From Sandaracinus sp. (GTDB lineage Bacteria > Myxococcota_A > Polyangia > Polyangiales > Houyiibacteriaceae), in assembly GCA_002699025.1 (NCBI GenBank), contig PABA01000224.1, positions 1 through 33,536 of the forward strand: a DNA stretch of 33,536 nucleotides, written 5' to 3'. A model generated the notes under the pieces. It was not told the origin of the DNA. It saw only the letters and a program-made list of their open reading frames with translations, and searched no databases. The translations under genes were made by a program, and so were the position numbers. Below, piece after piece: positions 12,056 through 24,396 of this stretch (position 1 is its first letter; every line of letters starts with the position of its first letter).

Positions 12056-13060
12056 ATGACCGAGAATCCCCGCAAGCTCACCCGGAAGGACTTCGCCTCG
12101 GACCAGGAGGTCCGCTGGTGCCCCGGCTGCGGCGACTACGCCATCCTCGCCGCGATCCAGCGCACGCTCCCGAAGCTCGGCGCGACCACGGAGAACACCG
12201 TGTTCGTCAGCGGCATCGGCTGCTCGAGCCGCTTCCCGTACTACATGAACACGTACGGCTTCCACACGATCCACGGGCGCGCGCCGACCTTCGCGACGGG
12301 CCTGAAGATCACGCGGCCGGAGCTCGACGTCTGGGTCATCACCGGTGACGGCGACGGTCTGAGCATCGGCGGCAACCACCTGCTGCACGTGCTGCGGCGG
12401 AACGTGAACCTGCAGATCATCCTCTTCAACAACCAGATCTACGGGCTCACGAAGGGCCAGTACTCGCCCACCTCGGACGTGGGGCAGGTCTCGCCCTCGA
12501 CGCCGCTCGGCTCCATCGATCAGCCAGTCGTGCCCGTGCGCGTGGCGCTGGGCGCGAACGCGAAGTTCGTCGCGCGCGGCTACGACGTGTCGAAGAAGCT
12601 GCCCGAGCTGCTCGAGCAGGCGCACGCCTTCCCCGGCGCGGCGCTGGTCGAGGTGCTGCAGAACTGCCCGGTCTTCAACGACGGGGTCTTCGACCTGATC
12701 ACGGACCGGAAGAAGGGCCCGCAGCACCAGCTCTGGGTCGAGCATGGCAAGCCCATGATCACGGCCGACGGGAAGAAGGGGCTGCGCCTCGACCCGAAGA
12801 CCATGCAGCTCGAGCTGGTGGAGCTCGGCGAGGGCGGCGTGAGCGAGGACGAGCTCTTCGTGCACGACGAGACGAACCGCTCGATCGCCTGGATGCTCTC
12901 GGACCTGCCGGAGGTGAAGGCGCTCGGCGTGCTCTACCGAGAGCCGGACGCGCCGGTCTACGACGACGGCGTGCGCGCCCAGGTGGAGATGGCCCAGGAG
13001 AAGGCCGGAGGGAGCGACCTCGCGGCGCTGCTCCGCTCGGGCCACACCTGGGAGGTCTGA
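12056..13060 (+). CDS. korB: 2-oxoacid:ferredoxin oxidoreductase, beta subunit
   Basis: The 334-residue thiamine-diphosphate subunit is the partner of the preceding gene. TPP/Mg binding motif TGDGDGLSIGGNH starts at 96, with NNQIYGLTKGQYSPTS downstream. Four cysteines at Cys22 and Cys25 (WCPGCGDYA), Cys56 (GIGCSSRFP) and Cys204 (LQNCPVFND) match the ligands of the proximal [4Fe-4S] cluster in the family. GRAPTFATGLK is also typical. There is no separate ferredoxin-like delta subunit in the window, which is usual for the two-subunit type. The C-terminal 40 residues extend somewhat beyond the core. Electrons would go to a ferredoxin encoded elsewhere. Confidence 0.95.
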   Translation: MTENPRKLTRKDFASDQEVRWCPGCGDYAILAAIQRTLPKLGATTENTVFVSGIGCSSRFPYYMNTYGFHTIHGRAPTFATGLKITRPELDVWVITGDGDGLSIGGNHLLHVLRRNVNLQIILFNNQIYGLTKGQYSPTSDVGQVSPSTPLGSIDQPVVPVRVALGANAKFVARGYDVSKKLPELLEQAHAFPGAALVEVLQNCPVFNDGVFDLITDRKKGPQHQLWVEHGKPMITADGKKGLRLDPKTMQLELVELGEGGVSEDELFVHDETNRSIAWMLSDLPEVKALGVLYREPDAPVYDDGVRAQVEMAQEKAGGSDLAALLRSGHTWEV

Positions 13061-13327: not shown

Positions 13328-13702
13328 TCAGACGTCCAGGAGCTCCTTCACCTTCGCGATCACCTGCGGCGCCTGGATCGGCTTCGTGATGTAGGCGGTC
13401 GCGCCGAGGGCCATGGCCCGCTGCCGGTCCTCCTGGGAGCCCTCGGTCGTGATGATGATGATCGGGACGTCCTTGTGCGTCTCGTCGCTGCGGATGCGCT
13501 TGACGAGCTTCAGGCCGTCCATGATCGGCATGTTGATGTCGGTGATGATGAGGTCGAAGCGCCCTTGGGCGAGCTTCCGCAGCCCGTCCACGCCGTCCTC
13601 GGCCTCCGTGACGGCGAGCTTCTTGATGCGAGCCAGCGCGAACACCAGCAGCTGCCGCATCATCGGCGAGTCTTCGACTACCAAACAGGAGAGATCGGCC
13701 AT
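13328..13702 (-). CDS. CheY-like single-domain response regulator (last gene of the che run)
   Basis: A 124-residue receiver domain with no output domain. The acidic pair is Glu10-Asp11 (VVEDSPMMRQLL), the phospho-acceptor Asp55 is in LIITDINMPIMDG, the switch Thr is in IIIITTEGS (85-86), and Lys107 is in YITKPIQAP. All catalytic residues are present, so it should be phosphorylatable. It lies 48 bases after the coiled-coil/GAF gene on the same strand and at the end of the chemosensory run, with a hairpin beyond it. It may be the output regulator or a phosphate sink for the CheA at 19678-21822; a second CheY begins the che set. Confidence 0.93.
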   Translation of the reverse strand: MADLSCLVVEDSPMMRQLLVFALARIKKLAVTEAEDGVDGLRKLAQGRFDLIITDINMPIMDGLKLVKRIRSDETHKDVPIIIITTEGSQEDRQRAMALGATAYITKPIQAPQVIAKVKELLDV

Positions 13703-13750: not shown

Positions 13751-14608
13751 TCAGAGTTTCTCCTCGATGCCTCGCAGCGCGGCCAGCGGCCCCGCCTCGG
13801 CGTCGTAGAGGTTCGCGGCGATCAGGGCCACGCCGGCCTGGGAGCCGAGGAGCTGGAAGAGCTCGTGGTCCACGTTGGCCCAGCCCTCCTTCTGCTCGAG
13901 GAGCGTGATCACCTCGACCACACCGACGGCCTTGCCGTCGGCCATGACGGGAATGACCGCGGCCGGGTCCTCCCGCGTCGCTTTCTCCAGGTCCGCCTCG
14001 CGGACCCGCGCGATGCCCGTCAGGCACGCTTCGCCGACCGGGCTCGCGTCGCCGACCTCCACCGGCTGGACCTCCGCCTCGTCGAGGCCGTCGGAGGCCA
14101 CCGGATAGGCGCGCTTCCCCTCCGCGTCGACCAGGTACACGACGTACTGGGCGGCGCCGACGAGCTGGCCCGCCATGTCGCTCAGGTGCCGGATGACGCG
14201 CCTCGGCGAGAAGCTGGCGTGGAGCTGGAAGTTCGCCACGTAGAGGTTGGCGAGGTCGTTGATCTCCTGCTCGACGGCGGCTTGGCGGTCGCGCCGCTCC
14301 TGCTCGGTCTGCTCGAGCTGCTCGGAGCGCTCCAGCAGGTTGCCGCGCTCCTTCTCGAGCCGCTCGATCGTCTTGAGGAGGTCCTTGATCGCGTCGTCGC
14401 TGGCGATCTGCGCCCGGAGCCGCGCGTTCTCCGCGCGGAGGTCGGCGATCTCGGAGCGGAGCTCGCGGCTCTCCTCGAGGAGGGCCTCCGTGTACTCGAC
14501 GCCCTTCCGCAGGAAGGAGCGGACGAAGGCCTCTCGTTCCTTCACGAGGTCCATCGGTACATCGCTCGCGCGGCGGTCGCGTTCCGCCTTCGGCTCACCC
14601 TCGCTCAC
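13751..14608 (-). CDS. Coiled-coil and GAF-like domain protein
   Basis: A 285-residue soluble protein. Residues about 20-120 form a long charged coiled coil (EALLEESRELRSEIADLRAE and RLEKERGNLLERSEQLEQ heptads). Residues about 125-275 read as a GAF-type sensor domain: LYVANFQLHASFSPRRVIRHL, then QYVVYLVDAEGKRAYPVAS, the strand AAVIPVMADGKAVGVVEVI and the closing helix FQLLGSQAGVALIAANLYD. No catalytic domain follows. I chose the first GTG; an ATG 18 codons in is an equal alternative. It sits inside the che cluster between CheB and CheY, so it is a candidate cytoplasmic input or scaffold in place of a receptor. The ligand is unknown. Confidence 0.8.
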   Translation of the reverse strand: MSEGEPKAERDRRASDVPMDLVKEREAFVRSFLRKGVEYTEALLEESRELRSEIADLRAENARLRAQIASDDAIKDLLKTIERLEKERGNLLERSEQLEQTEQERRDRQAAVEQEINDLANLYVANFQLHASFSPRRVIRHLSDMAGQLVGAAQYVVYLVDAEGKRAYPVASDGLDEAEVQPVEVGDASPVGEACLTGIARVREADLEKATREDPAAVIPVMADGKAVGVVEVITLLEQKEGWANVDHELFQLLGSQAGVALIAANLYDAEAGPLAALRGIEEKL

Positions 14609-14724: not shown

Positions 14725-15750
14725 TCAATCCAGGAGCTGGCCGAGGCGGCGCCCGAGCGCGTCGATCGGGAGCGACTCGTCGACGGCGCCGGTCGCCGCC
14801 GCGGCTTGCGGCATGCCGTAGATCACCGCCGTCTCCGCCGACTCGGCCAGCACGCGCGCGCCGGCTCGATGCAGCGCGGCCGCGCCCCGGGCGCCGTCGT
14901 CGCCCATGCCCGTGAGCACCACGCCGAGGCAGCGCTGGCGGAGGTGCCGCGCCGCCGACTCGAAGAGCCGATCCACCGACGGCACGTAGCGGTCGGTCGC
15001 GGCCGGAGGCAGGACGATCAGCTGCCCGTCGGCGCCGATCTCCGCGCACTGGCCGCCGGGGCAGACCCACGCCTCCCCGGCCTGCAGCGGGTGCGCGCGC
15101 GTGGCCTGGCGGACGTGGATCGGACCGAGCCGATCGAGCCGCGCCGCGAAGGTCTCGGTGAAGCGGGGCGGCATGTGCTGGGCGATCACGAAGGCCGCGT
15201 CCGGGCCCGGCGGGAGCCGGCGGAAGAGCTCGACGAGCGCCGTCGGGCCGCCCGTGGACGCGCCGATCACCACGACCTTGCGCGGCCGCCCGGGCGTGCG
15301 CGAAGGCGCCTCGGCGCGGGCCCCGCGCTCGACCGGGCGCACGCCGCCGAGGCGCGAGAGGTGCCGCACCAGCGCGACCTTCTCGAGCAGCTCCGCGCGG
15401 ATGGCGGCGAGGTCCGTCGTGACCGAGCGGGTCGGCTTCGCGACGAAGTCGAGGGCGCCGAGCTCGAGGGCGCGGAAGACGTTCTCCTTGTTGGCGTAGC
15501 CCGAGACGACGATTACCGGCGTCGGCTGCCGGGCCATGAGCAGGCGGAGGAACGTGAAGCCGTCCATGCGCGGCATCTCGAGGTCGAGCGTGATCACGTC
15601 CGGCGAGAGGTCGCGGACGAGCCGCAGGGCCTCGTTCCCGTCGGCGGCCTTCCCGACGACCTCGACGTCCGGGAGGCTCTCGAGCAGGTCGCTGATCGTC
15701 CGCCGGTTGTAGGCGGAGTCGTCGACCACCAGCGCGCGGAGCGGCTTCAT
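14725..15750 (-). CDS. cheB: CheB protein-glutamate methylesterase/deamidase
   Basis: The 341-residue enzyme removes methyl groups from chemoreceptors when phosphorylated by CheA. The receiver domain occupies 1-120 with Asp10-Asp11 and phospho-acceptor Asp56 (TLDLEMPRMDGF), and Lys in DFVAKPTRS. After an Arg/Pro-rich linker, the esterase domain shows the catalytic Ser in VVIGASTGGPTAL, His in IAQHMPPRFTETFA and Asp in LTGMGDDGARG. The C-terminal IYGMPQAAAATGAVDESLPI is typical. The ATG overlaps the cheR stop (ATGA). Its presence implies that methylated receptors exist elsewhere in the genome. Confidence 0.96.
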   Translation of the reverse strand: MKPLRALVVDDSAYNRRTISDLLESLPDVEVVGKAADGNEALRLVRDLSPDVITLDLEMPRMDGFTFLRLLMARQPTPVIVVSGYANKENVFRALELGALDFVAKPTRSVTTDLAAIRAELLEKVALVRHLSRLGGVRPVERGARAEAPSRTPGRPRKVVVIGASTGGPTALVELFRRLPPGPDAAFVIAQHMPPRFTETFAARLDRLGPIHVRQATRAHPLQAGEAWVCPGGQCAEIGADGQLIVLPPAATDRYVPSVDRLFESAARHLRQRCLGVVLTGMGDDGARGAAALHRAGARVLAESAETAVIYGMPQAAAATGAVDESLPIDALGRRLGQLLD

Positions 15751-16643
15751 GGGCCGGCCTCCTCGCCCCGGTCCGGCCACGCGCGCGGCTCGTCGTCGAG
15801 GCGCGGCCGCCGATAGACCATGTCGCCCTCGAGGTGCACCAGCTCGAAGTCCGTGGAGGCGCGCAGGAGCGATTCGCTGTGGCCGAGCATGAGGTAGCCG
15901 CCGGGGGTGAGCCGGTCGAAGAAGGTTCGCACGACCTGGCCCCGGGACTCGTCGTCGAAGTAGATCAGGACGTTCCGGCAGAAGATCGCGTCGACGCTCC
16001 CCACGATGGCGGACCGGTCGTGGTCGAGGAGGTTGAGGTGGCCGAAGTGGCACATCGCTCGGATCTCCGGCCGTACCAGCCGCCCGTCGGGCGTGTCGAG
16101 GAAGAAGCGCTCGTGCTCCGGGGGCATCGCGCGGAAGGAGCCCTCCCGGTAGACGGCGCGGCGCGCGTGGTGGAGGACCCGGCGGCTGATGTCGCTGCCG
16201 AAGACGCGCACCTCCCACCCGTCGAAGCGATGGCTCGCCGCGAGGATCATCGCGAGCGTGTAGACCTCCTCGCCGGTGGAGCAGCCGGCGCTCCAGAGCG
16301 TGAGCCGCTTCTTGTGCGCGTTCCGGGCGGCGAGCTCGGGGAGGAGCTCCTTGCGGAAGGCCTCGAGCTGGTAGGCCTCGCGGAAGAAGTAGGTCTCGTT
16401 CGTCGTGAGCAGGTCGACGGCGCGCTCGAGCTCGGTCTCGCCGTCCGGGTGGAAGCGGAGCCGCTCGTAGTAGGCGGTGTAGCTGTCGAGGCCGAGGGCG
16501 TGCAGCCGCTCGCGGAGGCGGCGCTCGACCACGAACTTCGCGTCGCGGTCGAAGCTGATGCCGCAGAAGGAATTGACCAGGTCGCGGAGGAGCCGAAACT
16601 CCTCCGGGGTCATGGACGGTCCCTGGTCGAAGAGCAGCGTCAT
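15747..16643 (-). CDS. cheR: CheR chemoreceptor methyltransferase
   Basis: A 298-residue SAM-dependent methyltransferase that adds methyl esters to glutamates of chemoreceptors. The N-terminal CheR helical domain starts at MTPEEFRLLRDLVNSFCGI and contains DRDAKFVVERRLRERLHALG. It is followed by LLTTNETYFFREAYQLEAF, the SAM-binding motif I LWSAGCSTGEEVYTLAM, RVFGSDISRRVLHHARRAVY and the conserved IFCRNVLIYFDD. There is no TPR or pentapeptide-binding extension. Start and stop both overlap neighbours by ATGA (HEAT gene upstream, cheB downstream), so it is tightly coupled to both. Confidence 0.96.
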   Translation of the reverse strand: MTLLFDQGPSMTPEEFRLLRDLVNSFCGISFDRDAKFVVERRLRERLHALGLDSYTAYYERLRFHPDGETELERAVDLLTTNETYFFREAYQLEAFRKELLPELAARNAHKKRLTLWSAGCSTGEEVYTLAMILAASHRFDGWEVRVFGSDISRRVLHHARRAVYREGSFRAMPPEHERFFLDTPDGRLVRPEIRAMCHFGHLNLLDHDRSAIVGSVDAIFCRNVLIYFDDESRGQVVRTFFDRLTPGGYLMLGHSESLLRASTDFELVHLEGDMVYRRPRLDDEPRAWPDRGEEAGP

Positions 16644-18631
16644 CCCCCCGCCCGACCTCCCTCGGCGAGGGCGGCGTCGAGCGCCTCCCGGACCAGCTCG
16701 TCCTCCTCCACGGCGCGGCGCGCTTCGAGCGCGGCCGTGGCTGCCCCCGAGCCCAGCTCCCCGAGCAGCCGCGCCGCCGCCGCCCGCACGTGCCAGCTCC
16801 CGTGCGCGAGCCCCGCGCCGAGACGCGTCGCCGCCGCCGCCGCGGGGAGGCGCCGCGCCGCCGCCAGCCCGCGCTTGACCACCTCGGCGTCGGCGTGGGC
16901 CAGGGCCCGCTCCACGTGCGCCTCGAGGTCGGGGGGCGCCAGGGCGATCAGCGCGTCCATGGCGGCCACGGCCACCGCCGGCTGGTCTTCGAGGAGCGCC
17001 CCGAGCAGCGGCACGTCCGCCCCGTCTCCGTGCGCGCCGAGCGCCGCGGCCGCCTCCGCACGCACCGCGGGCGCGCCGTCTTCGAGCGCCTGCCGGAGGC
17101 CCTCCGCCGCGCGCGCGCCGAGCGGGCGCACCCGGCCCAGCGCCCGCACGGCCTCCCGCCGCACGGCCGCGTCCTCGTCCATCAGGGCGAAGGCGATCAC
17201 GTCGCTCCCGCGCCCGTCCCCGAGCGCCCCGAGCGCGTCCAGGCACGCCTGCCGGAGCGCCGGGTCCTCGCTCGAGAGGCCGGCCTGGAGCGCGTCCAGC
17301 GCGCCTTCGCCCCCGAGCTCGGCGAGGAGCGCGGGCAGGCGCGGCCCCGCGTGCCCGAGGTCGACCGCGGCGAGCGCCGCCTCGACCGACGCCGCTTCGC
17401 GCTCGGCCAGTCTCCGGAGCGCTTCCGTGGCCGCCGCGGCCGGCTCGGCGTTCGCCGCGAGGTCGCCGCCGGGCGCGCTCGCCCGCCTCACGAGGGCCGG
17501 CGCGTCCTCGGCCTGGGCGAAGCGACCGAGGCTCCGCAGCGCCGCCGCCGCCACGGCCGGCGCCTCGTCCTCCGCCGCCTCCCAGAGCCACGCGCGGAGC
17601 GTCGCGTCCGGCGCCGTCGCCAGCTCGGCCGCGAGCTCCAGGGCGAGCGCCCGCGTCGGGCCGGTCGCCGCGTCGGCCACCGCGCGCAGGGGGGCGCTCG
17701 CCTCGGCGCCCCACTCTCGGAGGGCCGCGATCGCGTTCGGCCCGAGCACGTCCCGGGCGAGCACCGTCACGGCCGCGCCGAGGCGCGCCGTGTCGCGGAG
17801 CACGAGGAGCAGCTCGGCGGCGTGTCGGGGGGTCTCCCCCTCTTCCTCGCCGAGCGCCTCGCCGAGGGCCGCTTCGCTCCCGGCCAGGGGGTCGCGGAGC
17901 GCCGCCGGGCCAAGCGCCGCGGCCAGCTCGGCGAGCCCGGCGACCGCGAGCGAGCGTTCGTGCGGGGTCCGCTCGAGGGCTGCTGCCAGCGGGGCGATGG
18001 CCTCGGGCGCGCCGCTCCGCCCGAAGAGGGGGAGCGCCGCTCGCCGCGCCAGCCGGTCGTCGAGGAGCGGGGCGAGCTCCACCCAGGGCAAGACGGCGCC
18101 CGTCCGGACCAGCCCGTCGAGGGCGGCGACGCGCTCGTAGGCGCCGGCGTCCGCGAGGTGCGCGCGGAGGATCTGCTGGGCGGCCGGGCCGCCGAGGCGG
18201 GCGAGGGCGTCCAGGGCCGCCGCGGAGATGTTCGGGTCGGCGTCGCGCACGAGCGGCGCGATCCACTGGACCGCCTCCTCCGCGCCCGTGTCGCCGAGCG
18301 CCTCGATCACGAACTTCCGCGTGCCGTCCGGCCGCGCCTCGAGCGCGTCGCGGAGTGGCCCGAGCGCCCGGCGGCCGAGGCGCCCGAGGGCCTCGAGGGC
18401 CGCGTTCCGGAGCCCGACGTTCTCGCCCTGGGCCAGCGCGTCCACGAGCCGCGGCAGGAGCGGGTCCCGCTCCTCCGGCGCGCAGCGGATCACGCTCTGG
18501 ACGGCCTCGGCCCGCACGCGCCAGTCCGGGTCGGCGAGCCCCTCGAGGAGCGCGTCGCGCCGCTCGTCGTCGAGGCGCGCCCCGGCGAGCTCGCGCACCC
18601 GCCGCCGCCGCCGCTCGACCGGATCGCTCAA
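16640..18631 (-). CDS. HEAT-repeat protein of the chemosensory operon
   Basis: A 663-residue protein built almost entirely of HEAT/PBS-lyase-like helical pairs. Recurrent units of about 30 residues look like DPDWRVRAEAVQSVIRCA, DEDAAVRREAVRALGRV, DGAPAVRAEAAAALGAHG and SWHVRAAAARLLGELG. There is no catalytic or membrane segment. The start is TTG, overlapping the CheW stop (TTGA); no good ATG lies nearby, and longer readings give Arg/Gly-rich nonsense. The stop overlaps cheR (ATGA). HEAT solenoids are protein-binding scaffolds; the Che7 cluster of Myxococcus xanthus also carries a HEAT-like protein (Cpc7). Its position between cheW and cheR suggests it organises or tunes the kinase complex. 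The exact partner is unknown. Confidence 0.85.
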   Translation of the reverse strand: MSDPVERRRRRVRELAGARLDDERRDALLEGLADPDWRVRAEAVQSVIRCAPEERDPLLPRLVDALAQGENVGLRNAALEALGRLGRRALGPLRDALEARPDGTRKFVIEALGDTGAEEAVQWIAPLVRDADPNISAAALDALARLGGPAAQQILRAHLADAGAYERVAALDGLVRTGAVLPWVELAPLLDDRLARRAALPLFGRSGAPEAIAPLAAALERTPHERSLAVAGLAELAAALGPAALRDPLAGSEAALGEALGEEEGETPRHAAELLLVLRDTARLGAAVTVLARDVLGPNAIAALREWGAEASAPLRAVADAATGPTRALALELAAELATAPDATLRAWLWEAAEDEAPAVAAAALRSLGRFAQAEDAPALVRRASAPGGDLAANAEPAAAATEALRRLAEREAASVEAALAAVDLGHAGPRLPALLAELGGEGALDALQAGLSSEDPALRQACLDALGALGDGRGSDVIAFALMDEDAAVRREAVRALGRVRPLGARAAEGLRQALEDGAPAVRAEAAAALGAHGDGADVPLLGALLEDQPAVAVAAMDALIALAPPDLEAHVERALAHADAEVVKRGLAAARRLPAAAAATRLGAGLAHGSWHVRAAAARLLGELGSGAATAALEARRAVEEDELVREALDAALAEGGRAGG

Positions 18632-19116
18632 GGCGCCTCCAGCGCCGTCGGCACGTCGATGGCCTCGGCCGGCGCCGCGACCCGGTCGACGTCGATCACG
18701 AAGGTGAGCCCCCCGCCCGTGGCGTACACGGCCGCGATCCCCCGCGCCTCGTCGCCCGTGCCCAGCTTCGGCACGCCGCGCTGCTCCGTCGGGCCGGCGC
18801 CGAAGACGTCCGTCACGGAGTCCACGACGAGCCCCGCCGAGCGGTCCTCGAGCTCGACGACGATCCACTTCGTGCGGCGCGTCGGCGCCGTCGCCGGCAG
18901 GCCGAAGCGGCGGCGCAGGTCGAGCACCGGGACCACCTCGCCGCGGTGATCGGCCACGCCGAGCACGCTCGGCGGCGCGTGGGGGAGCTCGACGAGCGGG
19001 AGCGGGTTGATGATCTCCCGCACGCGGAGGATGTCCACGGCATACCGCACGTCGCCCACCTGGAAGCCCACCAGGTTCTTGCTGCGGTCGCTCCGTTGTC
19101 TCGTGGCGTCGACCAT
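18628..19116 (-). CDS. CheW-like adaptor protein, second copy in transcript order
   Basis: The 162-residue single CheW domain couples CheA to receptors. The N-terminus is basic (MVDATRQRSDRSKNLVGFQV), then the SH3-like subdomains: VGDVRYAVDILRVREIINPL, SVLGVADHRGEVVPVLDLRRRFG (the LGV..RG..VPVxDLRxRFG signature), WIVVELEDRSAGLVVDSVTDV and the C-terminal strand GGGLTFVIDVDRV. It follows the other CheW gene after 25 bases and overlaps the HEAT gene by TTGA. Two different CheW proteins in one operon suggest two receptor partners, or a partner for the HEAT protein. Confidence 0.93.
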   Translation of the reverse strand: MVDATRQRSDRSKNLVGFQVGDVRYAVDILRVREIINPLPLVELPHAPPSVLGVADHRGEVVPVLDLRRRFGLPATAPTRRTKWIVVELEDRSAGLVVDSVTDVFGAGPTEQRGVPKLGTGDEARGIAAVYATGGGLTFVIDVDRVAAPAEAIDVPTALEAP

Positions 19117-19141
19117 GTCGTCTTCCTCGCCGCGCGCTCCC

Positions 19142-19681
19142 TCAGTCGAGCAGCGGCTCGGGGTCGAGGAGCACGAGGATCTCTTCCGTCTCGCTCTCCG
19201 TGTCGCGCTCGCCCTCCCGGTCGCGCCGCGAGCGCCGCGGCCGGCCCACGCCGAGGACGTAGTCGGACAGATCTCCGCCGACGACGCCGGAGAGCTCGAT
19301 CTCGTCGTCGAGGAGCCGATGCACCGAGAGCACCTGGTCCACCAGCACGCCGAGCACCTCGTCCTCGGCGGCGACCAGGAGGATGCGCGTGTGCTTGTCC
19401 GGCGGGCTCTCGGCCACGCGCAGCCGCCGGCGCAGGTCGATCACCGTCGTGATGGTCCCGCGGACGGCCACCACGCCGAGCACGTCGCCGGGGGCGCGCG
19501 GCACGGGCGTGATCGGCGGCGGCTTGAGGATCTCCCGGATGGCGTGGAGCGGGAGCGCGTAGGTCTCCTCGGCGATGACGAAGGCGAGGAACTCCCGCGC
19601 CGTCAGCGCCTCCCGCTCCAGCACCGGCGCCTGGCTCGCCGCCGCCGGGATCACCGTGTCGCGCTTGACGACGTCGCTCAT
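19142..19681 (-). CDS. CheW-like adaptor protein, first copy in transcript order
   Basis: A 179-residue CheW domain with an N-terminal extension of about 28 residues. Core signatures are FLAFVIAEETYALPLHAIRE, ILKPPPITPVPRAPGDVLGVV, AVRGTITTVIDLRRRL, RILLVAAEDEVLGVLVDQVL and the late strand EEILVLLDPEPLL. A charged insertion (RPRRSRRDREGERDTESE, about 149-166) separates the last strands, which is unusual. The ATG overlaps the cheA stop (ATGA). It is probably the main CheA-receptor coupler, with the copy at 18628-19116 as its paralogue; the two are clearly diverged. Confidence 0.92.
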   Translation of the reverse strand: MSDVVKRDTVIPAAASQAPVLEREALTAREFLAFVIAEETYALPLHAIREILKPPPITPVPRAPGDVLGVVAVRGTITTVIDLRRRLRVAESPPDKHTRILLVAAEDEVLGVLVDQVLSVHRLLDDEIELSGVVGGDLSDYVLGVGRPRRSRRDREGERDTESETEEILVLLDPEPLLD

Positions 19682-21822
19682 CGCGAGGCCTCCAGGGCCG
19701 TGAGCTCGGGCGTGCCGAGCAGCTCCTCGAGGAGCGCCGGGACGTCCAGCACGAGGGCCACCTGCTGGTCCCCGAGGTCCGTCGCGCCGGCGAAGCCGCG
19801 CACGCGCTGGAGGCTCTTGCCGAGGCTCTTGATGACGATGTCCTGCTGGCCGTCGAGGCCGTCGACGACGAAGCCGAGCCGCCGATGGGCGACCGCACAG
19901 ACCACCACGTAGCGCCGCGGCGGTGTGCCGTCCGCGTCGAGCTCGGGGGGCTCCGCGGCCTCGAGCCGGAAGAGCCGGTCGAGCCGGCAGAGCGGCAGGG
20001 TGGCGCCGCGCAGCGTCATCACCTCGCGCCCCTCCACGGTGCGGAGCTTCTCCGGCTCGAAGAGGATCGCCTCCTGCACCGACGTGATCGGGATGGCGAA
20101 GCCCCGCCCGCCGATTCGGATCAGGAGGGCGTTGATGATCGCCAGCGTGACCGGGAGGGTGATCGTGAACTTCGTGCCCGTCCCCAGCTCGGACTGCACG
20201 TCGATCACCCCGCCGAGCCGCGAGATGTTCGTCTTCACGACGTCCATGCCGACGCCGCGACCGGAGAGGTCGGTGATCGCCGAGCGCGTGCTGAAGCCGG
20301 GCATGAAGATGAGGTTCAGCGCCTCCTCCCGGCTGACCTCGGCCGCCGCCTCCTCCGTGATCAGCTCCCGGCGGAGGGCCGTCTCGACGATGCGCTGCGG
20401 GTTCATGCCGGCGCCGTCGTCCTCCACCTCGATGACGACGTGCTTGCCCTTCTGGTAGGCGTTCAGCGCGAGCGTCCCCGAGACCGGCTTGTCGGCGAGC
20501 TCGCGCACCTTCGGCGACTCGATGCCGTGGTCGATCGCGTTCCGGATGAGGTGCATGAGCGGGTCGCTCAGCTCCTCGACGATGAGCTTGTCGACCTCCG
20601 TGTCCGCGCCCGTCACCAGGAGCTTCACGTCCTTGTCGTGCTCCCGCGCGACTTGCCGCACGATGCGCGCGAGCTTGTCGAAGATCTGCCCGAGCGGGAC
20701 CATCCGCACGTCGAGGATGCCGTCCTGGAGCTCCTCGAGGCGGCGCTCGAAGCCGCGGTTGATCCGGTGCAGCTCGATGGCGAGCTGGCGGAGCTCGGGC
20801 CGGCCGCGGAGCCGCTCCGAGATGCGCCCCACGGCGCTCTTCACGAGCGCCAGCTCGCCCACCACGTTCATCAGGTGGTCGAGCTTGCGGATGTCGACGC
20901 GCACCGTGTTCGCCACCGAGCGGAGCGTGAGCTGGTCCGGCGACATCTCGCGTCGCTCCACGGGGGCCGCGCTCGGCGGGCGAGGCGTCGGTGCCGGCGG
21001 GGGCGCCGGGAGCGGGGTCGAGCTGCTGCTCGGGGCGAGCGCTTCGTGCTCCGTGCGCCGGTCCGGGCTCTCCCCCGAGCTCCGCCGGCTCACGCGGAGC
21101 AGCTCCGCGTCGGCGTCGACGAGCGCCTCCTCGAGCGTGTCGTAGGGCGCGCTGCTCGCGAGGAGCACGTCGAGGTCGATCGTGTCCCCGTCGCCGCCGC
21201 CCGTGCTCGGCAGGTAGGTGATGATCTCGGCGAGCGGCTTGGCGCGATCCTTCAGGTCCTCGAGCTGGCTGTCGATGGTGAGGAGGCTGAAGCGCACCTT
21301 GAGCCGGTAGAGGGAGACGCCCTGGCGCACGTTCGTGCGCAGCCGATGCTCCTCGTACTCCGTGAGCACGGAGAGCACGTTCGGGTCGAGCTCGTAGCCG
21401 AGGAGGTCGTCGTCCGGCGCGGCCGAGCCGCTCCCGGTGAAGCGCGCGATGCCCTGGAGGAGCCGCTCGACGTCCACCTCGGGGGCGTCGGGCGAGTCGA
21501 CCAGGAGCCGCTGGAAGCTCTCGACGCCCTCGAAGAGCACGTCGAGGACGCTCGGGTCGAGCTCCACGCGCCCGAGCCGGAGCTGATCGAGGAGATCCTC
21601 GAGGGCGTGGGAGACCTCCCCGAGGCGGGCGTAGCCGAACATGCCCGCGATGCCCTTGAGCGTGTGGACGCCGCGGAAGACCTCGTTGATGAGCTCGCTG
21701 GTGGTCTGATCGAGCTCCGGCCCATGCTCCTTCTGCGCCTGGTCGAGCAGGAGCAGGTCGCGCGAGAGCGACTCGATGATCTCCTGCGCTTCGGCGAGAA
21801 ACTCCTCGTGGACGTCGCTCAC
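19678..21822 (-). CDS. cheA: CheA chemotaxis histidine kinase
   Basis: A 714-residue class II kinase. The P1 HPt domain (1-110) carries the phospho-accepting His53 in EVFRGVHTLKGIAGMFGYA. A P2-like region (about 140-235) is followed by a Ser/Pro-rich linker (250-290). The dimerisation domain is at about 300-370. The ATPase holds the N box MHLIRNAIDHGIESPKVRE (424-442), G1 EVEDDGAGMNP and G2 LSGRGVGMDVVKTNISRLGG. A CheW-like regulatory domain ends the protein (from about 555, FAIPITSVQEAILFE). There is no C-terminal receiver, unlike FrzE-type hybrids. It is coupled to cheY upstream and cheW downstream by ATGA overlaps. Confidence 0.97.
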   Translation of the reverse strand: MSDVHEEFLAEAQEIIESLSRDLLLLDQAQKEHGPELDQTTSELINEVFRGVHTLKGIAGMFGYARLGEVSHALEDLLDQLRLGRVELDPSVLDVLFEGVESFQRLLVDSPDAPEVDVERLLQGIARFTGSGSAAPDDDLLGYELDPNVLSVLTEYEEHRLRTNVRQGVSLYRLKVRFSLLTIDSQLEDLKDRAKPLAEIITYLPSTGGGDGDTIDLDVLLASSAPYDTLEEALVDADAELLRVSRRSSGESPDRRTEHEALAPSSSSTPLPAPPPAPTPRPPSAAPVERREMSPDQLTLRSVANTVRVDIRKLDHLMNVVGELALVKSAVGRISERLRGRPELRQLAIELHRINRGFERRLEELQDGILDVRMVPLGQIFDKLARIVRQVAREHDKDVKLLVTGADTEVDKLIVEELSDPLMHLIRNAIDHGIESPKVRELADKPVSGTLALNAYQKGKHVVIEVEDDGAGMNPQRIVETALRRELITEEAAAEVSREEALNLIFMPGFSTRSAITDLSGRGVGMDVVKTNISRLGGVIDVQSELGTGTKFTITLPVTLAIINALLIRIGGRGFAIPITSVQEAILFEPEKLRTVEGREVMTLRGATLPLCRLDRLFRLEAAEPPELDADGTPPRRYVVVCAVAHRRLGFVVDGLDGQQDIVIKSLGKSLQRVRGFAGATDLGDQQVALVLDVPALLEELLGTPELTALEASR

Positions 21823-22202
21823 CCGGCGCCTCCCGCGCGGCGCTCCAGCACGTCCCGCACGAGGGTGGTCAGCGCGTCGGCGCCGAAGGGCTTGCTGAGG
21901 AAGGCGTCGGCCCCGAGGTCGAGGCCGCGCTGCCGGTCGCGGGCGCTGGCCTCCGTGCTGATGAGGATCACCGGCGTCGCGCCGTGCTGCTCGCTCTTGC
22001 GCATGAAGGCGATGAGCTCGAGCCCGTTGATGTCGGGCATGTTGATGTCGACGACGACGAGCTCCCAGGGCTCGCGGGGGAGCAGGCGGAGCGCCTCGAA
22101 GCCGCTCGACGCCTCGCTCACGTCCGCGCCCGTGTCCTCGAGGGCGGCACGCACGAACGCGCGCATGGCGCTGCTGTCTTCGACCACCAGGACGCGGAGC
22201 AC
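21819..22202 (-). CDS. CheY-like single-domain response regulator (first of the che run)
   Basis: A 127-residue receiver domain starting with GTG. Acidic residues Glu8-Asp9 (VLVVEDSSAMRAFV), phospho-acceptor Asp52 (VVVDINMPDINGLEL), switch Ser/Thr in VILISTEASARD and Lys in FLSKPFGADALTTL are all present. The stop overlaps the cheA ATG (ATGA). It lies 48 bases after recO on the same strand, so readthrough from the recO operon is likely. It would be the direct CheA phosphorylation partner; no flagellar or pilus motor gene is in the window to name its target. Confidence 0.93.
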   Translation of the reverse strand: MLRVLVVEDSSAMRAFVRAALEDTGADVSEASSGFEALRLLPREPWELVVVDINMPDINGLELIAFMRKSEQHGATPVILISTEASARDRQRGLDLGADAFLSKPFGADALTTLVRDVLERRAGGAG

Positions 22203-22250: not shown

Positions 22251-22985
22251 TCAGCGCTCGCGGCGGGCGCGCGGCTCCCCGACGTGGGCCCGGAGGAGCG
22301 CCAGGAGCAGGTCGTCCGCCTGTTTGCGCGCGCGGTCGTCCCAGCCCTCGAGCTCGGTCCAGCCCTCGCCCATCGCCTGCTTCAGGAGCGCCCGGGTGGG
22401 GCCCGAGACGAGCAGGGGGCCGCCGCCGTGGGCCCGGGCGACGATGGTGCCGCGCTCCGGGTCGAAGAGGGCGGCCTGGCCGGGGGGGCAGGGCGCCCCG
22501 GAGACGCCGCAGGCGTCGAGCCCCGGCGCGAGGCCGACCAGGGCGAGGGCCCGGGCCCGGAAGGCGAGCGCGACGTCGTCGGGGTTCTCGCTCGCGGCGA
22601 GGGCGGCGTGGTAGCGGGCCACGGCCTCGAAGAGCCGGGGCATGGGCTCGCGCTCGGGGCAGAGGCGCCGCACGAGCTCGAGGCCGCGGCCGGCCGCCTG
22701 GATCCGCCCCAGCGAGGTGAGCAGGCCCGGGTAGGCCTCGCGCACGCGGGCCTCCTTCAGGGTCGCCAGCTCGCCCCGGCCGAAGGTGAAGCTCACGGCG
22801 AGCCGGTGGCAGGGCTCGAGGCCGCCACCGAAGCGCTTCCGGCTCCGGCGGGCGCCGCGAGCGAGGGCGCCGACCTTGCCGTGCTCCTCCGTCAGGAGCG
22901 TGACGATCTTGTCGGCGTCCCGGTAGTCGATGGCGCGCAGGAGGAAGGCGTCGCTGCGCTCCTCCTGGCGGCTCGGGGCGCTCAA
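22251..22985 (-). CDS. recO: DNA repair protein RecO
   Basis: A 244-residue recombination mediator that loads RecA on SSB-coated DNA with RecR. The N-terminal OB fold is visible as DAFLLRAIDYRDADKIVTLL, then GKVGALARGARRSRKRFGGG, and LEPCHRLAVSFTFGRGELATL. A helical C-terminal domain follows with FRARALALVGLAPGLDACGV; the pair Cys...Cys (ACGVSGAPC) resembles the degenerate zinc site of the family. The start is TTG overlapping the stop of the RodZ-like gene (TTGA). Normal size for RecO. Confidence 0.92.
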   Translation of the reverse strand: MSAPSRQEERSDAFLLRAIDYRDADKIVTLLTEEHGKVGALARGARRSRKRFGGGLEPCHRLAVSFTFGRGELATLKEARVREAYPGLLTSLGRIQAAGRGLELVRRLCPEREPMPRLFEAVARYHAALAASENPDDVALAFRARALALVGLAPGLDACGVSGAPCPPGQAALFDPERGTIVARAHGGGPLLVSGPTRALLKQAMGEGWTELEGWDDRARKQADDLLLALLRAHVGEPRARRER

Positions 22986-23455
22986 GCGCGGAGCGTGACC
23001 GGCGCCGTGGTCTCGACGCTGGAGAGCTCCACGGGCACGTCGCGATGCCGCGGCCGGAGCACGATGGAGAGGGCGAGCGTGAAGAGGATCAGCAGGACCA
23101 CCACGGCGATGGCGATGCCGAAGCGGCGCCCGCGCTCGGGGGTGGCGGCGACGCTCGAGAGGGGCGTCGGCGTCTCGTCCTCCTGCCGGCCTTCGTCGTA
23201 GCGGGCGAGGATGGGCGCCGGGTCCAGGCCGAGGGCCTTGGCGTAGGCGCGCAGGAAGCCACGCACGAAGACCTCTCCGGGGAGGGCCTCGAAGTCGTCC
23301 GCCTCGACGGCGCGCAGGGTCTTGAGCGGGATGCGCGTGGTCTGGGCGACCTCTTCGATGGAGATCGCGCGGAGCTCGCGCTCGCGCCGGAGGTGGGCGC
23401 CGACGCCGTCGCGCAGGCGAAGCTCGGTCGCGGGGAGGGGGCGGGCTGTGCTCAT
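22982..23455 (-). CDS. RodZ-like helix-turn-helix membrane protein
   Basis: A 157-residue protein with an N-terminal RodZ-type HTH_25 domain (about 15-85): GAHLRRERELRAISIEEVAQ, TTRIPLKTLRAVEADDFEAL, and PGEVFVRGFLRAYAKALGLD. A variable linker is followed by one transmembrane helix (about 112-134, FGIAIAVVVLLILFTLALS). The periplasmic tail is only about 22 residues, so the DUF4115 domain of full RodZ is missing. RodZ binds MreB and supports rod shape; this short form may be a minor paralogue or a membrane-bound regulator. The ATG overlaps the TPR gene stop (ATGA), and its stop overlaps recO. Confidence 0.88.
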   Translation of the reverse strand: MSTARPLPATELRLRDGVGAHLRRERELRAISIEEVAQTTRIPLKTLRAVEADDFEALPGEVFVRGFLRAYAKALGLDPAPILARYDEGRQEDETPTPLSSVAATPERGRRFGIAIAVVVLLILFTLALSIVLRPRHRDVPVELSSVETTAPVTLRA

Positions 23456-24396
23456 GGCTGGGCCTCCGCGTCGTTCGTGCGGGGGGCGGTGTCGGCGGCG
23501 GTGTCGGGGGGGGCGGCCGGGGAGGGGTTGGGCGGCGGGGGCGGCGTCCGGTCGAGCAGACGCTGGCAGCGCTGGCCTTCTTCCGTGTCGGCGCCGAGGG
23601 CCACGCAGCGCTCGAGGTCGGCCAGGGCGTCGGCGCGGCGACCGAGGCGGGCCCGGACCTCACCGCGGAGCCGCCAGGCGCCCTGCAGCTGCGGCGCGTC
23701 GGCGCAGGCCTCGTCCGCCTCGATGGCGCGCACGAGGGCCTCCTCGGCCAGCTGGAGGTCGTTCGCCGCGAAGTGCGCCCGGCCGAGCCGGTACCAGCCC
23801 ACGCAGAAGCGCGGCTGCATGCGCACGGCGGTCTCGAGCGCCTCGACGGCCTCGGGGGCGCGCCCGGCCTCGAGACGGGCGAGCCCGAGGTTGCCCCACG
23901 CGAGGTGCGGGGCCGTGTTCATCTCGTCCAGCGCCGAAGCCTCGAGGACCTCGGCGGCCTCGTCGTACTCCTCGCGGGCGATCAGGACGAGGCCGAGCAC
24001 GTTGCGCGCCTCCGCGAGCGTCGCGCCGCGGCGCCCGTGCTCCACGAGCAGCTCCACGCCGCGCCGGGTGTGCTCCTCGGCGGACGGGTGGTTCGCGCGC
24101 TGGAACTGGATGATGCCGAGGAGCACGTGCGCCTCGGCGTTCTCCGGATCCAGCTCGAGCGCCTCGCGCAGGTGTCCGATGGCGCCCGGAATGTTCTGCT
24201 CTTCGTGCAATGCAGCCGCCAGCTCGAGCTCTCGACGGGAGCGTTCGATGTCGTCGCTCGAGGGTCCGTGAACCCCACAACCCAGAAGCGAAGAGACGGT
24301 CAGGGGCGCGAGCAGCAGGAAGACGAAGAAAGACGGAGTACGGCCCCGCGCGCCCTTGAAGGCCGGGGATCTACCGGGTGCCCGCAGTGGGGTCAA
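23452..24396 (-). CDS. TPR-repeat lipoprotein
   Basis: A 314-residue protein predicted to be an exported lipoprotein with at least five tetratricopeptide repeats. The signal is FFVFLLLAPLTVSSLLGC, with the lipid Cys at about 40 from a TTG start. The TTG is the first plausible start before the hydrophobic stretch; the actual start could differ by a few codons. TPRs run from about 53 to 285: AGAIGHLREALELDPENAEA-like PGAIGHLREALELDPENAEA, then ARNVLGLVLIAREEYDEAAEV, NLGLARLEAGRAPEAVEAL, WYRLGRAHFAANDLQLAEEA and a weak last one. The tail is Pro/Ala/Thr-rich. It resembles PilF/PilW-type pilotins in layout, but identity is not proven. First gene of the TPR-rodZ-recO set. Confidence 0.85.
   Translation of the reverse strand: MTPLRAPGRSPAFKGARGRTPSFFVFLLLAPLTVSSLLGCGVHGPSSDDIERSRRELELAAALHEEQNIPGAIGHLREALELDPENAEAHVLLGIIQFQRANHPSAEEHTRRGVELLVEHGRRGATLAEARNVLGLVLIAREEYDEAAEVLEASALDEMNTAPHLAWGNLGLARLEAGRAPEAVEALETAVRMQPRFCVGWYRLGRAHFAANDLQLAEEALVRAIEADEACADAPQLQGAWRLRGEVRARLGRRADALADLERCVALGADTEEGQRCQRLLDRTPPPPPNPSPAAPPDTAADTAPRTNDAEAQP

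Follow-up and report, generated by a model that had tools for sequence, protein, structure and literature searches.

The 33,536-nucleotide stretch of Sandaracinus sp. DNA analysed here (the window) contains a chemosensory operon in which a gene for a HEAT-repeat protein stands between cheW and cheR and from which a gene for a methyl-accepting chemotaxis protein (MCP) is missing, raising the question of which receptor signals through the operon and which partners the HEAT protein has. Che8/beta-group systems, to which the operon belongs, are widespread, and one of them controls electrode colonisation in Geobacter; the HEAT gene has so far been overlooked despite occurring in the cluster with near-core regularity. 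From the comparison reported here, a likely receptor for the operon emerges, and the candidate partners of HEAT are narrowed to CheY1 and CheR, not CheW. Judged from sequence, the place of HEAT is most likely in a CheY-HEAT-CheR module that stands beside one of CheA, CheW and receptor; a link of this kind, if true, would wire adaptation in an unusual way.

Organisation of the operon

The seven che and HEAT genes from cheY1 to cheB, all drawn on the minus strand (Table 1), have Pfam identities far above the curated cut-offs. Five of their junctions are 4-base overlaps and one, between the two cheW genes, is a gap of 25 bases. The preliminary description had recognised the overlaps and the gap, and the ATGA at cheA/cheW, HEAT/cheR and cheR/cheB and the TTGA at cheW/HEAT stand as described, but the cheY1/cheA junction is GTGA and not ATGA. 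It had likewise delimited the seven-gene run properly but missed its continuation: 116 bases beyond cheB, the cluster resumes with a coiled-coil/GAF gene followed by cheY2, both of which recur in related loci. The GAF gene occupies the same place in 31 of these, each of which also has cheY2, while cheY2, whose position is conserved across related loci, occurs without the GAF gene in seven and the GAF gene without cheY2 in none. The two form a second pair, which persists in loci L172 and L173 despite the loss of cheY1 and HEAT and possibly represents a separate output or input branch.

A recO-like gene, recognised by eye, ends about 48 bases ahead of cheY1 on the same strand, so that transcription of the che genes may begin at some point ahead of cheY1. 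The gene for the beta subunit of a TPP-binding oxidoreductase, convergent with the che cluster, is an unrelated neighbour. A scan of the region for promoters and terminators was uninformative.

Table 1. Genes of the chemosensory cluster and its neighbours in the window.
Feature	Position	Strand	Description
recO-like gene	22251..23663	-	by eye
cheY1	21819..22202	-	single-domain response regulator, first in cluster; PF00072 E 6.5e-28; GTG start
cheA	19678..21822	-	714 aa; HPt, dimerisation, HATPase and CheW domains (Pfam); no fused receiver
cheW (first)	19142..19681	-	PF01584 E 1.9e-32
cheW (second)	18628..19116	-	PF01584 E 6.8e-32
HEAT solenoid gene	16640..18631	-	663 aa; TTG start; PF13646 E 8.7e-42
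cheR	15747..16643	-	methyltransferase, 298 aa; PF01739 E 2.7e-56, PF03705
cheB	14725..15750	-	methylesterase with receiver domain; PF01339 E 5.9e-56, PF00072
coiled-coil/GAF gene	13751..14608	-	285 aa; GAF families E 3.5e-8 and weaker
cheY2	13328..13702	-	second single-domain response regulator; PF00072 E 6.9e-30
TPP-binding oxidoreductase beta subunit gene	12056..13060	+	PF02775

A Che8/beta-group cluster

The operon is a Che8/beta-group chemosensory core, a known cluster type. It shows the order of this type, cheY-cheA-cheW-cheW-...-cheR-cheB(-cheY) in one direction, no mcp lies in the cluster, and both MCPs of the genome are encoded on other contigs. In a CheA tree constructed without M. 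xanthus CheA8, the window CheA groups with those from loci of the same order in Sorangium, Nannocystis, Anaeromyxobacter, Desulfuromonadales and others. The che8 cluster of M. xanthus (MXAN_4751-4759) comprises cheY8b, cheA8, cheW8b, cheW8a, two unlisted genes, cheR8, cheB8 and cheY8a, without an mcp (PMC3945109), and has no known function (PMC9040617). Mcp-less 'beta-group' clusters were reported to be conserved in delta-proteobacteria including Geobacter, Anaeromyxobacter, Stigmatella, Plesiocystis and M. xanthus (Tran 2008; PMC2577667), and che8 is common to M. xanthus, A. dehalogenans and G. sulfurreducens according to the Anaeromyxobacter genome paper (PMC2330069). The operon type is thus not new, the same gene content without an mcp being found in M. 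xanthus che8 and in the beta-group clusters of Tran 2008; the word HEAT is absent from the main text of the latter (PMC2577667).

M. xanthus Che7 had earlier been drawn on for comparison. A relationship with Che7 was ruled out by gene order and by the CheA tree, and the true counterpart is Che8: Che7-order operons carry an mcp between cheW and HEAT, which in the window is absent, the second cheW and HEAT overlapping by TTGA, and the CheAs of two loci of Che7 order (cheY-cheA-cheW-mcp-HEAT-cheR-cheB; L130 and L135) sit on a very long branch far outside the window CheA group. Both cluster types coexist in one genome (G177). The preliminary description was right to see HEAT as a core component and the module as lineage-wide. 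HEAT recurs in the cluster almost as regularly as the core genes.

Two further arrangements were observed among the relatives. In Enhygromyxa salina (L048), a CheA of the window family stands alone, the 9 kb to each side of it showing no cheY, cheW, HEAT, cheR or cheB. In many lineages, a gene encoding a zinc ribbon and a receiver (PF13717 and PF00072 in L028, at L028:13514-14428; equivalents in L029, L032, L033, L147, L148 and L190) is located just upstream of HEAT; it is absent from the window, and a receiver-like gene is kept at that place in the HEAT-less loci L172 and L173.

A candidate receptor encoded elsewhere

It had been predicted from CheR and CheB that the window, itself devoid of an MCP, is served by a receptor encoded elsewhere, and the genome does encode two MCPs, on contigs C92 and C198, along with five CheW domains. 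The C92 MCP shares its contig with another cheA and cheW; this second che cluster (G000:C92; L001, L005 and L007) includes a HAMP-bearing MCP and a CheR-like protein with, by eye, an extra C-terminal STAS-fold-like region. The other MCP, P0001 (G000:C198:25277-27031; L002 and L118), is an orphan of 585 aa for which two N-terminal membrane segments were predicted by eye, with almost no periplasmic part. Neither a HAMP nor a recognised sensor domain was found in P0001, the input of which may be cytoplasmic or membrane-borne. In MCPs of class 40H, that of EsnA, each arm of the signalling domain exceeds that of class 36H (Tsr) by two heptads; the signalling domain of P0001 has 14-residue insertions in each arm relative to Tsr, yet aligns without gaps to TM1143.

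Across 188 Myxococcota genomes, HEAT (E ≤ 1e-60) was present in 52, a C198-type MCP (E ≤ 1e-40) in 54 and both in 50 (Fisher p 3e-38, ignoring relatedness). The C198-type MCP thus tracks HEAT, occurring in 50 of 52 HEAT genomes versus 4 of 136 others, whereas just 8 of the 52 encode the C92 MCP. In the class to which the window belongs, an MCP at a minimum of 53% identity is present in each of the 31 HEAT genomes, and the only match among the eight genomes without HEAT, in G032, is weak. In families f15, f19, f27 and f30, a related MCP often lies within the operon, between cheW and HEAT; a receptor beside the gene set with HEAT not conserved was not encountered, as receptor-bearing sets keep HEAT adjoining the receptor. 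In G. sulfurreducens, two-hybrid assays found EsnA, a class 40H MCP encoded elsewhere, to associate with CheW and CheA from a cluster of the order cheA-ATPase-cheW (PMC5585712), and the Desulfuromonadales loci compared here have the same cheA-AAA-cheW order. Based on its co-occurrence with HEAT, its in-operon relatives and the parallel with EsnA, P0001 is probably the receptor of the operon.

Structure and conservation of the HEAT protein

The HEAT protein contains about 20 repeats, with HEAT_2 (PF13646) matched in seven stretches and PF02985 also recognised. An AlphaFold2 model based on 26 orthologues reached a mean pLDDT of 93.7 and a pTM of 0.80, with 41 predicted helices; Pfam, the model and the solenoids matched in the PDB all indicate tandem HEAT repeats forming a solenoid. 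The Foldseek matches in the PDB were generic HEAT solenoids only (PP2A A subunit, karyopherins, CAND1 and SF3B1) and suggested no function, and no equivalog was found in NCBIfam or PHROGs. Conservation, in a numbering about 17 ahead of that of the 663-aa protein, peaks in the first repeats (approximately residues 30-200) and again in stretches of the C-terminal third. The N-terminal half is retained in fused and shortened forms.

Joint loss of HEAT and cheY1

So that the sample would not depend on HEAT, loci were collected by CheA as well, from 59 genomes of the window's class. Both traits were readable in 77 of the 80 loci scored: 69 had HEAT and cheY1, seven had neither (L020, L021, L042, L168, L171, L172 and L173), one had HEAT only (L025 from Anaeromyxobacter, with no cheY1 found upstream of cheA) and none had cheY1 only (Fisher p 3e-9, uncorrected for descent). 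The CheA tree implies five changes in HEAT, of which at least four are forced by starred branches, and cheY1 changes alike in all four independent pairs, whereas CheR and CheY2 are for the most part the same across the pairs where HEAT changes; with only four to five independent HEAT losses, a tree-based sign test cannot reach 0.05. Among the CheA-selected loci, a minimum of four losses of HEAT can be counted, every one accompanied by loss of the upstream cheY. The three intervening genes (cheA and two cheW) were retained, which rules out a single deletion removing HEAT and cheY1. Relocation of HEAT was also rejected, only weak partial HEAT matches (best E 1e-24 to 1e-30) being found in the HEAT-less genomes G195, G196 and G197. 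The HEAT-less loci keep CheA and CheW and, in six of seven cases, CheR, so HEAT is not essential to CheR. Six of their genomes encode the receptor at 52-62% identity and the seventh (G197, the same genome as G032) only a 34% relative.

A CheY partner for HEAT proteins has precedents. For Cpc7, the HEAT protein of M. xanthus Che7, binding to CheY7 has been reported (Darnell 2014, cited in PMC11514114), and the earlier statement that the HEAT partner is unexplored is superseded to the extent of that citation; CheY is an interaction partner of Halobacterium OE2401F, whose deletion mimics that of CheY (PMC2666748).

Association of HEAT with CheR

In nearly all loci with both genes, the HEAT stop lies 6-66 bases ahead of the CheR domain, the exceptions being two fusions, L134, where the HEAT frame is broken, and L131, for which the distance given has no meaning. 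An mcp, an AAA gene or the zinc-ribbon receiver gene intrudes among cheA, cheW and HEAT, never between HEAT and cheR. Each fusion is a single open frame in a draft genome (L035:14044-16035, 664 aa; L141:5988-7814, 609 aa), in which an N-terminal HEAT part of roughly 330-370 residues, corresponding to only the N-terminal half of HEAT, precedes CheR. Branch-length residuals from 51 operons, with related loci counted as independent, correlated for HEAT with those of CheR (0.43, p 1e-5) and CheY1 (0.31, p 0.002) but not with those of either CheW (0.04 and 0.10), the values for CheA and CheB being 0.22 and 0.16; for reference, the same test gave 0.44 for CheA-CheW1, a known complex, and 0.38 for CheR-CheB. 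Adjacency could inflate the HEAT-CheR covariation, though the often-adjacent HEAT and CheW2 show none. With related loci again counted as independent and a profile built mostly from HEAT-bearing loci, CheR profile scores in loci lacking HEAT fell below those predicted by CheA and CheW (p 1e-5), and a short or fused HEAT likewise went with low CheR scores, whereas CheB scores were not lowered where HEAT is absent (p 0.86).

These data bear on several readings of the HEAT protein. The preliminary description, noting that HEAT directly follows cheW in an operon without a receptor, had proposed it as a possible link between CheW/CheA and a receptor that is distant or cytoplasmic. This now appears highly improbable: the HEAT-less genomes tested keep CheA, CheW and a receptor, HEAT lacks rate covariation with either CheW, and it is still present where an MCP lies in the operon, so it is no stand-in for linkage. 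The alternative raised there, a link to CheR, is plausible in view of the cheR adjacency, the two fusions and the HEAT-CheR rate covariation. HEAT could be an adaptor bringing CheR to a receptor without a C-terminal tether pentapeptide, its link to CheY1 being indirect; the C-terminus of the C198 receptor reads ...ANKLKSL and bears no NWETF-like tether sequence, the Geobacter class 40H/44H MCPs are also tetherless (PMC2577667), and the fusions to CheR would fit. Since the receptor and CheR are kept while HEAT is lost, always together with cheY1, we consider such a role improbable. Conversely, HEAT might serve CheY1 purely as its output target, a role proposed for Cpc7, with the tie to CheR reflecting operon order and chance fusions. 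The co-loss with cheY1, the OE2401F and (as cited) Cpc7 precedents and the persistence of CheR without HEAT agree with this, but it is made unlikely by the two independent HEAT-CheR fusions, by the covariation with CheR, the strongest that HEAT shows, and by the divergence of CheR, not CheB, where HEAT was lost or shortened.

A proposed CheY-HEAT-CheR module

The reading that we favour, with moderate confidence, is that of a Che8/beta-group core whose receptor is the C198 MCP and whose HEAT protein is a CheY1 partner coupled to CheR, probably as a scaffold; its basis at the sequence level is the gene set, co-occurrence, co-loss, the HEAT-CheR fusions and rate covariation. The unlinked, two-TM, HAMP-less C198 MCP would signal via CheW to CheA, and phosphate from CheA would go to CheY1. 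The HEAT solenoid would bind CheY1 and also CheR, probably uniting the two, and this scaffold would tie receptor methylation, or output, to CheY1 phosphorylation, if control runs in the direction we infer. A module of this kind is suggested by the cheY1 co-loss, the constant cheR adjacency, the fusions and the rate covariation with CheR and CheY1 but not CheW, and it agrees with the CheY binding published for OE2401F and, through its later citation, for Cpc7. A more specific version, in which HEAT is a phospho-CheY-gated CheR regulator, is put forward tentatively and is rather doubtful: phosphorylated CheY1 would act through HEAT, a separate adaptor twice fused to CheR, on the methyltransferase, creating a second feedback loop beside that of phosphorylated CheB.

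Comparison with known systems

The window resembles M. xanthus Che8, as compared by gene listing and not by sequence (tables of PMC3945109), in gene set and order, in the mcp-less operon and in a CheA with a dimerisation domain and no fused receiver; it differs in that one or two genes occupy the HEAT position in Che8 and that cheB8 and cheY8a have no gene between them, where the window has the GAF gene. Beta-group clusters likewise have cheA, cheW, cheB and cheR and lack an mcp (PMC2577667), whereas in the desulfuromonadal clusters an AAA ATPase gene separates cheA from cheW and extra receiver genes are frequent, both being absent from the window operon. M. xanthus Che7 shares with the window a HEAT gene (cpc7) directly before cheR-cheB and cheY-cheA-cheW ahead of it, but has an mcp between cheW and HEAT. 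Halobacterium OE2401F (HEAT_PBS) is, like the window HEAT, encoded by che genes, and its interaction with CheY is documented (PMC2666748); it is, however, archaeal, acts with CheF at the archaellum and was compared with the window protein at the level of the HEAT repeat. Finally, the CheR-TPR proteins FrzF and WspC join CheR to a helical-repeat scaffold (PMC3447774), as do the HEAT-CheR fusions, but their repeat is a TPR, short and mostly C-terminal, whereas here it is HEAT, long, N-terminal and usually a separate protein.
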